A DNA stretch of 54,016 nucleotides from a virus, in the IMG/VR virus record IMGVR_UViG_3300009093_000056, positions 1-54,016 of that record; one strand, written 5' to 3'. Position 1 is the first letter of the stretch; every line of letters begins with the position of its first letter. Positions 4,885 to 53,991 of this stretch are shown in pieces. The notes beneath the pieces were generated by a model. That model did no database searches. It was not told the origin of the DNA and saw only the letters and a program-made list of their open reading frames with translations. A program made the position numbers and the translations under genes.

Positions 4885-4889
4885 TGGTT

Positions 4890-5062
4890 TTGATCCTGCG
4901 GGCCGGTCGCTACTCCGGCTTCCCTGTTGCACATCGGTGGCACGTCGGCCTTTTGCCCTGAACCGTCGCTCAGAACTCAGCCGCGCGTGTGTCTACTAAC
5001 CCCGTAAGGTCGGGCGCCTCGTACTGGCAGCGTGTCTGCTTTCCACGCTGCCGCAGACCAAA
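4890..5062 (-). ncRNA. Structured leader element S2
   Basis: Second copy of the S1 architecture, 173 nt. Closing stem: 4890-4902 (TTTGATCCTGCGG) with 5051-5062 (CCGCAGACCAAA, one bulge). Adjacent hairpin GCCGG/CCGGC (4903-4920) and a 9-bp hairpin GGCAGCGTG/CACGCTGCC (5026-5052). The interiors differ from S1 while the stems are kept. A -10 like TATAAT lies about 30 nt upstream on the minus strand and the 3' strand of the closing stem contains the AGGA before the 4884 start, so the fold could hide that ribosome site. Confidence 0.5.
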
Positions 5063-22013: not shown

Positions 22014-22093
22014 AGATCGCGCCGCCTCCTATACGGCTTGATCTTCCCGCCCGAACACGCGATAGGAGCGCGGTCCAGGCGGGAAGAGGGGAA

Positions 22094-41838: not shown

Positions 41839-41867
41839 TTGACAAACCCTAACAGATAGTGTATCCT
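41839..41867 (+). promoter_or_regulatory. Early promoter P1 with internal operator
   Basis: TTGACA (41839-41844), 17-nt spacer, TATCCT (41862-41867). The spacer holds CCCTAACAGATAGTG (41847-41861), an imperfect copy of the palindrome in P2. It drives the 67-aa gene at 41890. Confidence 0.75.
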
Positions 41868-42133: not shown

Positions 42134-42162
42134 TTGACACACGCTAACAGATAGCGTATACT
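42134..42162 (+). promoter_or_regulatory. Early promoter P2 with palindromic operator
   Basis: TTGACA (42134-42139), 17-nt spacer, TATACT (42157-42162). The spacer contains the perfect 15-bp palindrome CGCTA-ACAGA-TAGCG (42142-42156). P1 has the same element, 3 mismatched positions, at the same distance. Confidence 0.8.
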
Positions 42163-42263
42163 GTAGATGTGAGAACGAACTAAATACAGAGACATCCCGG
42201 AACGGTACCAACCTCTACCTGCAACCCCGAAGTGGACAAGCAGGAAAAGCCGAGATGTGACCA

Positions 42264-42314
42264 CTAGCAGACAGAGGATGGATTGCAGGCTCGCTGCCTG
42301 CCTGCTGGTTTATC
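42264..42314 (+). ncRNA. Leader RNA element B1 (TCGCT loop)
   Basis: Outer stem AGCAG (42266-42270) with CTGCT (42302-42306), a 14-nt one-sided bulge ACAGAGGATGGATT (42271-42284), inner stem GCAGGC/GCCTGC (42285-42290 with 42296-42301) and loop TCGCT, then GGTTTATC. B2 at 42605 has the same plan. It lies in the 185-nt leader of the 42348 gene. Confidence 0.55.
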
Positions 42315-42347
42315 GTACGCATCGACAAACACAAGGAGCCAGAGACA

Positions 42348-42596
42348 ATGGCAAGCACGAACGGCATGGGCGCTCACTACCACGCGCTAGTCATCATGCA
42401 AAACGGAACCGTTCACCGGGTCGCAACAAAGCAGACGGCCGAACAATGCGCAACGTACCTTGCGTTACGGTTTACCCCTCCGCTTTGGAATGAGGCTCGG
42501 GTTCGCCGCGATCTCATCAAAATTGGTACGGTAGAGATCGAAGACGACAAGTCGCTCATCGTTGAAAGCTGCAACGACGTTTGTTGCCACATCTAA
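42348..42596 (+). CDS. Early hypothetical protein
   Basis: 82 aa with AAGGAGCCAGAGACA before the ATG. It looks like a small alpha/beta protein (HYHALVIMQNGTVHRVATKQ; AEQCATYLALRF; RRDLIKIGTVEIEDD) ending CNDVCCHI. No family recognised. It is the second early gene behind P2 and carries B1 in its leader. Confidence 0.6.
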   Translation: MASTNGMGAHYHALVIMQNGTVHRVATKQTAEQCATYLALRFTPPLWNEARVRRDLIKIGTVEIEDDKSLIVESCNDVCCHI

Positions 42597-42604
42597 GACT
42601 GTTA

Positions 42605-42656
42605 CCGCCGTCAGAGAATGGACCCTCCGCTCGCTGCGGAACGGCGGTTTGATCCT
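42605..42656 (+). ncRNA. Leader RNA element B2 (TCGCT loop)
   Basis: Outer stem CCGCCGT (42605-42611) with ACGGCGG (42641-42647), a 14-nt bulge CAGAGAATGGACCC (42612-42625), inner stem TCCGC/GCGGA around loop TCGCT (42626-42640), then TTTGATCC. The stems share almost no sequence with B1 while bulge length, CAGAGRATGGA, loop and the GGTTTRATC flank are kept. Precedes the 42694 gene. Confidence 0.6.
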
Positions 42657-42693
42657 GGTATCGCACACATCACATCATGGAGGTTTTGAGACA

Positions 42694-42906
42694 ATGACAC
42701 GGCAGGAACAAATCGAATTCGTTCGCGAGCTTTCGAACAACGTCGCGAACAGCATCATTGAGCAAATCGAACGAGATCGCGTTCTGGCAGACTGGGACGG
42801 CAAGGAGTTGCGTCTGCTGCTCGCAGACAAGCATTCCGAATGGGACATGGCAACACGCGCAGACAAGCGCCGATACCGCAACACGGTCGCCATTCGCGGC
42901 TTGTAA
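42694..42906 (+). CDS. Early hypothetical protein
   Basis: 70 aa from the ATG at 42694 with GGAGG about 10 nt upstream. Helical: QEQIEFVRELSNNVANSII and KELRLLLADKHSEWDMATRA, ending in ADKRRYRNTVAIRGL. No family recognised. The preceding spacer holds B2. The upstream in-frame codons belong to that element rather than to coding sequence. Confidence 0.55.
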   Translation: MTRQEQIEFVRELSNNVANSIIEQIERDRVLADWDGKELRLLLADKHSEWDMATRADKRRYRNTVAIRGL

Positions 42907-42995
42907 GTCACACAAGCAAAAGCTGCCGGGTTTCGAACCTGCACAGTTCCCCCGGCCGCACGTCCCCTCATGGTCACGAAAGGACAGTTAAGATT

Positions 42996-45300: not shown

Positions 45301-45355
45301 TTTTACAAAATACCTAGTTTTACCCCTTGACAACCGGTACTAGGTATTGTAAAAT
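45301..45355 (+). promoter_or_regulatory. Early promoter P3 within a long inverted repeat
   Basis: TTGACA (45327-45332), 17-nt spacer, TAAAAT (45350-45355). TACCTAGT (45311-45318) and ACTAGGTA (45339-45346) are perfect inverted arms; they extend to TTTTACAA(AA) on the left and TTGTAAAA on the right, about 16 bp in all with a 2-nt insertion. The right arm covers the spacer and the -10, so a bound protein would block transcription. Confidence 0.7.
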
Positions 45356-45375
45356 TAACCTATCACAAACACACA

Positions 45376-45403
45376 GGCGAGCCGCGCTGGAACCGCGATC
45401 GCC
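45376..45403 (+). ncRNA. Hairpin A1 with CTGGAAC loop
   Basis: GGCGA (45376-45380) pairs with TCGCC (45399-45403) and CGCG (45383-45386) with CGCG (45394-45397), around the loop CTGGAAC (45387-45393). 24 nt later is the start of the 45427 gene. Confidence 0.55.
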
Positions 45404-45997: not shown

Positions 45998-46025
45998 GGG
46001 GCGCGCCGCTGGAACCGGCCGCCCC
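45998..46025 (+). ncRNA. Hairpin A2 with CTGGAAC loop
   Basis: GGGGCG (45998-46003) with CGCCCC (46020-46025) and GCCG (46005-46008) with CGGC (46016-46019), loop CTGGAAC (46009-46015), one bulged C. The stem sequence differs from A1 but the loop is identical. The 46048 gene starts 22 nt later. Confidence 0.55.
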
Positions 46026-46047: not shown

Positions 46048-46314
46048 ATGAACTATGTGATTTCATCCAAGCAACGATTTAACACCGCCGAAGAGGTGTT
46101 CTCGGCAGCATCGGACCCGATCGGTATGCGCGGTAACCTCTGCGTAGAGCAAATCACGCAATCGCCGCGCCGCACTCGCATTGTGGTTGAGTGCAACGCT
46201 AAAGGGGCATGGTACGGATCACTTGGCGGCTACTACAATGCCGCGCAATTACTGGCCCATGACATGGGCGCAAAAATTAGGGAAGCAAAAGAGAGTGATT
46301 TGCGGGGCGCGTGA
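46048..46314 (+). CDS. Early hypothetical protein
   Basis: 88 aa from the ATG at 46048 (AAAGGACAAAAAAA upstream). RFNTAEEVFSAASDPIGMRG, then RIVVECNAKGAWYGSLGGYY and the helix NAAQLLAHDMGAKIREAKE. Its stop lies inside hairpin A3. Small alpha/beta protein of unknown function. Confidence 0.6.
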   Translation: MNYVISSKQRFNTAEEVFSAASDPIGMRGNLCVEQITQSPRRTRIVVECNAKGAWYGSLGGYYNAAQLLAHDMGAKIREAKESDLRGA

Positions 46315-46330
46315 CTGGACTCACCGCCCC
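46304..46330 (+). ncRNA. Hairpin A3 with CTGGAC loop
   Basis: GGGGCG (46304-46309) with CGCCCC (46325-46330) and GTGA (46311-46314) with TCAC (46321-46324), loop CTGGAC (46315-46320), one bulged C. The 5' stem includes the stop codon of the 46048 gene. It precedes the 46381 gene by 50 nt. Confidence 0.5.
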
Positions 46331-53299: not shown

Positions 53300-53991
53300 C
53301 GACAACACCCATTCTCGCCTGGCATTTTCGAGATGCAGGCGGCACAACGAGCCGATTAGCCAAGCCCGAACATGTCGGCGTTCGCTATTCCGTCACACCG
53401 CCCGTTGTCTGCTGCTCAAACGGGCTTCACGGCTCGATCCGAGCGATCGACGCTCTGGAATACGCATCCAGCACCACCGCGATTATCTGCCGAACTTCCC
53501 ACGAAGGCGAGATTGACAGGCAGCACGACAAACTCGCGTCTGAGCACCGGACGGTTCTGTGGCAAGCGGACTGCACGATGGCACTCCACGAGTTCGCGTG
53601 TCTGTGCGCCGAGCAGTCGTTCGAGATCATCAAGAAACGCGGGTCAGTAGTTGCGCCGGAAATGCTGGCTTGCGTTGATGCAAAGCGCAAGTGGATGCGC
53701 GGAGAGATCAATTCGGAAGAATTGGCCGCTGCCAGGGACGCTGCCTGGGACGCTGCCAGGGACGCTGCCTGGGACGCTGCCAGGGACGCTGCCAGGGACG
53801 CTGCCTGGGACGCCGCCTGGGACGCCGCCTGGGACGCTGCCAGGGACGCTGCCGCTAATGCGGCATCGGAAATCCAAGGCGCCAAGCTTCTCCGCGAGCA
53901 CGGAGAACCTTTCTTCTTTCTCCCGATGTTCGGCTTCGACAGCCCGGAAGCGATTCCGGCGCGCCCGAGCAACTACGGGCAGACTGCCTAG
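53296..53991 (+). CDS. DUF7666-type protein with AAWDAARD repeats
   Basis: 231 aa, ATGA overlap. ILAWHFRDAGG, VTPPVVCCSNGLHGSIRAID, LHEFACLCAEQSFEI and DAKRKWMRGEINSEELAAAR are landmarks of DUF7666, a widespread phage family with unknown function that often ends in a run of AAWDAARDAA helix repeats; here the run covers about residues 143-195. Last complete gene in the window. Confidence 0.75.
   Translation: MTTTPILAWHFRDAGGTTSRLAKPEHVGVRYSVTPPVVCCSNGLHGSIRAIDALEYASSTTAIICRTSHEGEIDRQHDKLASEHRTVLWQADCTMALHEFACLCAEQSFEIIKKRGSVVAPEMLACVDAKRKWMRGEINSEELAAARDAAWDAARDAAWDAARDAARDAAWDAAWDAAWDAARDAAANAASEIQGAKLLREHGEPFFFLPMFGFDSPEAIPARPSNYGQTA
53732..53856 (+). repeat. 12-bp tandem repeat in the DUF7666 gene
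   Basis: About ten copies of GACGCTGCC(A/T)GG with a few C/T changes. They encode the repeat DAA(R/W). Length change by replication slippage is likely. Confidence 0.8.

Follow-up and report, generated by a model that had tools for sequence, protein, structure and literature searches.

The window, that is, the whole stretch of 54,016 nt analysed here (IMG/VR virus record IMGVR_UViG_3300009093_000056, positions 1 to 54,016), carries an early operon in which structured elements lie in front of small genes (Table 1): a sigma-70-like promoter is followed by the leader E0, by the elements B1 and B2, each with a small cargo ORF behind it, and by E4 with a further ORF. The promoter at 42134-42162 is similar to another one at 41839-41867, and in both the hexamers enclose the repeat CTAACAGATAG, which may be a repressor operator and has a third, weaker copy at 45327-45355. 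A second family of repeated hairpins, R, is also located before early genes (stems GCGA..CGCG, GGGGCG..GCCG or GGGGCG..GTGA), its loop being conserved as either CTGGAAC or CTGGACT and CCCGCCAGGAGAC(T)AGCGGG often coming next; its members were seen in the window at 45379-45402, 45999-46025 and 46303-46330, in L238 around 10838, 14705, 15415, 16890, 17648 and 18832, and on the minus strand of L253 around 1270 and 150. The minus strand of L238 (3713-3783) also contains an int-alpA RNA (RF02996; 50.1 bits, exceeding the gathering score). Further down the window, at 53724-53855, a 12-bp tandem repeat (GGACGCTGCCWG) lies within an ORF with a DUF7666 match.

Table 1 Features of the early operon in the window
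Feature	Position	Strand	Sequence and basis
Sigma-70-like promoter, early operon	42134..42162	+	TTGACA-17-TATACT; 11/12 consensus letters; ACGCTAACAGATAGCGT repeat between hexamers
E0, structured leader	42193..42258	+	CATCCCGG...CTCTACCTG...CAGGAAAAGCCGAGATG; same place in four phages; outer stem read by eye
B1 element	42261..42312	+	sequence; covariance model 73.5 bits, E 1.8e-17 (B1 is itself a model member); covariation
B1 outer stem	42263-42270 / 42302-42309	+	ACTAGCAG / CTGCTGGT; one U-G pair
B1 bulge	42271-42284	+	ACAGAGGATGGATT
B1 inner stem	42285-42290 / 42296-42301	+	GCAGGC / GCCTGC
B1 loop	42291-42295	+	TCGCT
Cargo ORF a, 82 aa	42348..42596	+	no Pfam match; mostly deleted in G1
B2 element	42602..42652	+	sequence; covariance model 56.7 bits, E 6e-13 (B2 is itself a model member); covariation
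B2 outer stem	42604-42611 / 42641-42648	+	ACCGCCGT / ACGGCGGT
B2 bulge	42612-42625	+	CAGAGAATGGACCC
B2 inner stem	42626-42630 / 42636-42640	+	TCCGC / GCGGA
B2 loop	42631-42635	+	TCGCT
Tail	42646..42677	+	GGTTTGATCCTGGTATCGCACACATCACATCA; homologous to the E3 tail in relatives (window-G2 and window-G3 blastn segments)
Cargo ORF b, 70 aa	42694..42906	+	no Pfam match
E4	42922..42959	+	GC-rich stem with small bulge, inner GAAC/GTTC stem, loop CTGCACA; kept in four phages
ORF after E4, 55 aa	42996..43163	+	MAQTDYERAV...; read from sequence

An earlier inspection of the letters (the sequence-only reading) had proposed that B1 and B2 are built on one plan, and this can be read directly in the sequence: in both, an outer stem leads to a 5' bulge that contains CAGAGRATGGA, followed by an inner stem with the loop TCGCT, bulge and loop are kept while the stems differ in sequence, and the two elements precede the ORFs at 42348 and 42694, at a distance of about 40-45 nt from the next start codon. 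Two details of that proposal need amendment. The bulge comprises 14 nt in both elements of the window, as described, but in two relatives it is 13 nt long in B1 as well as in B2, and the GGTTTRATC tail ascribed to both is present in B2 (GGTTTGATC) but not in B1 (GGTTTATC). Since the bulge length changes by one base between copies, a coding role of B is argued against.

With zero mismatches, CAGAGRATGGA has B1 and B2 as its sole two sites. The layout as such is common; a descriptor demanding 7 or more outer-stem pairs, a bulge of 12-15 nt, 5 or more inner-stem pairs and a loop of 5 nt yielded 15 sites in the window versus 8.2 +/- 3.1 in shuffles. The same loop together with 10 matching bulge letters was found for one pair in the window, the best of 60 dinucleotide shuffles reaching 5 letters, and with a comparable pair in none of these shuffles the B1/B2 pair is confirmed to exceed chance. 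The TCGCT at 4907 (S2 hairpin), which had been pointed out beside the pair, is rejected as a third copy: as it sits in an 8-nt loop and the covariance model finds nothing there, it most likely is a chance 5-mer. The stretch 4885-4921 is conserved (97% in G1, 91% in G2) amid poorly conserved surroundings and contains two possible hairpins, CCGCA..TGCGG and GCCGG..CCGGC.

Beyond the pair in the window, five more copies and one truncated copy were found in three IMG/VR phages, so that third examples, whose absence from related phages the sequence-only reading had counted towards its refutation, do exist: G1 (G001; IMGVR 3300013307_000003, 72,529 bp), found by a pattern scan of IMG/VR, about 96% identical to the window over large parts and circularly permuted; G2 (G002; 3300025914_000010, 78,660 bp), found through the integrase; and G3 (L253; 3300009551_001102, 8,565 bp), found by a second pattern scan. 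Each of them contains B1 and then B2. A covariance model search of the four phages revealed no further convincing copy, and all real copies are located on the operon sense strand. In G1, B1 is intact and B2 is cut off after the TCGCT loop; in G2, B1 keeps its 5' half and loop, while the 3' half is replaced and the 3' outer strand is gone, so that single B copies are dispensable. Most of the 119 stretches of the first pattern scan and of the 85 stretches of a genome contig search were discarded as chance matches without the fold. Among named phages and plasmids no relative was found at the DNA level, ParB used as a probe retrieved none, and searching two sampled phyla for the integrase returned nothing, which shows little about the host.

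The suggestion that the motif represents a defined RNA fold is well supported. In the alignment of seven B copies from four phages, the proposed fold pairs 86.7% of the cells, the covariation score amounts to 0.469 versus 0.010-0.238 with slid partners, and six base pairs are changed on both sides and still paired; it should be noted that these double changes are in essence one B1-to-B2 divergence, as the B1 copies and the B2 copies are each nearly identical and come from four phages. Folded singly, window B1, G3 B1, G3 B2 and G2 B2 form both stems, and the damaged B1 of G2 does not adopt the proposed fold. For window B2 alone a rearranged fold beats the proposed shape, which in this copy therefore rests on the relatives. 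RNAalifold closes part of the bulge as a CA-GAGRA-UG mini-hairpin, giving a small three-way junction; its columns never vary, and hence this hairpin is without covariation support. A pseudoknot of the bulge AGAGR with the loop UCGCU, possible on paper, was rejected, with zero nucleotides left to cross the stem.

Throughout the four early regions the order of the elements is constant: E0, hammerhead (G2 and G3), B1, B2, E3 (G1, G2 and G3) and E4. Nucleotide homology between these regions is nearly confined to the elements and adjoining short UTR stretches and stops at the element edges in all pairwise blastn comparisons, the left edge of B1 (CCACTAGCAGACAGA) opening a homologous segment in six out of six. 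The ORFs between the elements, on the other hand, do not match each other over their full length when the phages are compared by blastp at E 1e-4, apart from one 99-aa gene shared by G1 and G2, which is placed between B2 and E3 in the former and between E3 and E4 in the latter. In G1, G2 and G3 a gene precedes B1. The fold z-score of E4 is -2.1 in the window, and -4.2 and -4.3 in two relatives. E3 was considered as a further member of the B family; its weak covariance model matches rest on the outer stem only, and it is thus regarded as a separate element of similar layout. Because the tail of window B2 matches the tail found after E3 in G2 and G3, this B2 probably is a B2/E3 hybrid, and it looks like a fusion that removed the intervening gene.

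The early leader of G2 also contains, according to a descriptor search, two complete sense-strand hammerheads, each with the core and its three stems, and at the position of the second one G3 has a variant with C3->U and G8->A, in which the core pair is kept (U3-A8). Across the 2.25 Mb searched the descriptor gave no other match, with none in the window (both strands) and none in G1. Since Rfam gives a weak and misplaced hammerhead score there, the assignment rests on the descriptor. B1 and B2 are not hammerheads themselves: they lack the CUGANGA...GAAA core, and the G2 matches and the G3 variant adjoin B and do not lie inside it. Ahead of B1 in G3 (L253) lies, at about 3660-3648 on the minus strand, TAAGTTTCCTC; these 11 nt repeat the 5' strand of this phage's hammerhead variant and end at the predicted hammerhead cleavage site. 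Hammerheads of prophages flank individual genes whose identities vary, and tested examples cleave (Perreault et al. 2011, PMC3088659).

Elements that fold, that are strand-specific and that stay in the same order while genes are replaced, in a leader that also contains hammerheads, point to a role at the RNA level in dividing the transcript. We give about an even chance to the reading that B1 and B2 are paralogous intercistronic RNAs, which would act at the RNA level by cleavage, directed cleavage or insulation, and would be recombination boundaries as well. They would act in cis as structured RNAs, each about 50 nt long and placed ahead of one small gene of a polycistronic early transcript, and each element would supply the next gene with a 5' segment of its own, whether it cuts itself, directs a nuclease or shields that segment; the hammerheads of the same leader would do likewise via self-cleavage, and the early transcript would thereby be split into separate gene units. 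Besides such a role in mRNA processing or insulation, we infer that the conservation of the elements drives gene exchange, short homologous boundaries being a consequence of their being conserved. Prophage hammerheads beside changing genes were described in 2011 without their function being settled. The present phage group provides a natural comparison, namely a leader with or without hammerhead beside a second, undescribed RNA family in conserved order, and this renders the idea of transcript cutting directly testable. Should gene exchange be guided by them as well, the elements would represent a concrete case of RNA-level selection creating recombination boundaries.

Conservation as DNA only, the elements being boundaries of homologous recombination or a recombinase site and the fold incidental, would explain why homology breaks at the element edges in all pairwise comparisons and how one gene could change its slot between G1 and G2, and recombination at short boundaries has been proposed as one origin of phage mosaicism (PMC3029335). 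DNA homology alone, however, does not require that pairing is kept despite the stem differences between B1 and B2; moreover, all copies have a single orientation relative to transcription and the GTTRRRY core of attC is absent from the four early regions, and we regard this explanation as improbable. It also seems unlikely that B1 and B2 are put-like antiterminators, folding on the nascent transcript and modifying RNA polymerase to pass later terminators. Two sequence-related copies indeed lie near the start of the early operon, their starts being about 100 nt (B1) and about 440 nt (B2) past the -10 box, but putRNAs consist of two long stem-loops and B of one bulged hairpin or a small three-way junction, the E3, E4 and R hairpins occupy similar places before later genes of the operon, G1 has a broken B2 and G2 a damaged B1, and, given the gene before B1 in G1, G2 and G3, the link to the promoter is not fixed.

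Only a small probability is assigned to control of the next gene's translation through a phage or host protein or a ligand (as in a translational operator or a riboswitch-like element). What invites it is the strong conservation of the unpaired CAGAGRATG and TCGCT on varied stems, together with the predicted mini-hairpin, whose GAGRA pentaloop is of the GNRNA kind. The genes behind the elements are unrelated, however, which makes gene-specific control unlikely and still allows global control, the mini-hairpin has invariant columns, and the neighbourhood with hammerheads in the leader points rather to RNA processing or insulation. A bolder version of the RNA-level reading, by analogy, is that B1 and B2 could be the founding members of a new class of small self-cleaving ribozymes, in an operon whose ordered set of different RNA elements provides fixed slots for exchangeable genes; we consider this quite unlikely. 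Twister sister, pistol and hatchet were discovered through their association with known ribozymes. Searches against Rfam 15, including its ribozyme families, gave no match at gathering scores, and none up to E 10 on 42200-42720. Inspection by eye for a nested pseudoknot of the HDV kind, and for similarity between UCAGAGAAUGACA and hatchet, led to the rejection of both: no matching downstream strand was seen and Rfam returned no match. Leaky intrinsic terminators or attenuators (GC-rich stems, then a few U) are very improbable, as in spite of the GGTTT after the outer stem in most copies the terminator scan lists neither B1 nor B2, and the U run, of at most 4, is not conserved and is lost in G2 B2 (GGTGTATC).

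Considered as intercistronic RNAs that may divide the early transcript, B1 and B2 share traits with several known systems. They differ from integron attC sites (folded sites flanked by the core sites GTTRRRY / RYYYAAC), GTTRRRY being found in none of the four early regions, and from intrinsic terminators, in which a U tract follows a GC-rich hairpin: the scan lists neither element and their U run is not conserved. In HK022, putL sits immediately downstream of PL and putR some 270 nt past the PR start; each is about 70 nt long, and their sequences are related (PMC9378689). Here, too, a related pair of leader RNAs lies close to the start of the early operon, but these measure about 50 nt and fold into one main hairpin plus an optional mini-hairpin in place of two long stem-loops. 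Like the boundary sequences of mosaic phages (PMC3029335), the elements are short conserved sequences between exchanged modules; unlike these, they fold, covary and are strand-specific. With the prophage hammerheads (PMC3088659) they have in common that structured elements, several per operon, stand between small phage genes of varying identities, and two of the four phages contain hammerhead sequences in the same leader, although the hammerhead core is lacking in B1 and B2. The SAS and ESAS of cluster K mycobacteriophages are likewise repeated conserved sequences just before start codons, often of different gene families, the ESAS being 17-bp imperfect inverted repeats with a spacer of mostly 4-13 bp, which usually adjoin the 13-bp SAS (Pope et al. 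2011, PMC3203893). The SAS itself (GGGATAGGAGCCC) has one two-mismatch match in the window, at 22059 (chance expectation 0.83), and none near B1/B2, and unlike the ESAS, B combines two stems and a fixed loop with a bulge conserved on one side, and its place among a series of different, ordered elements is fixed. Judged by analogy of position, SAS/ESAS is the nearest published analogue of B1 and B2.
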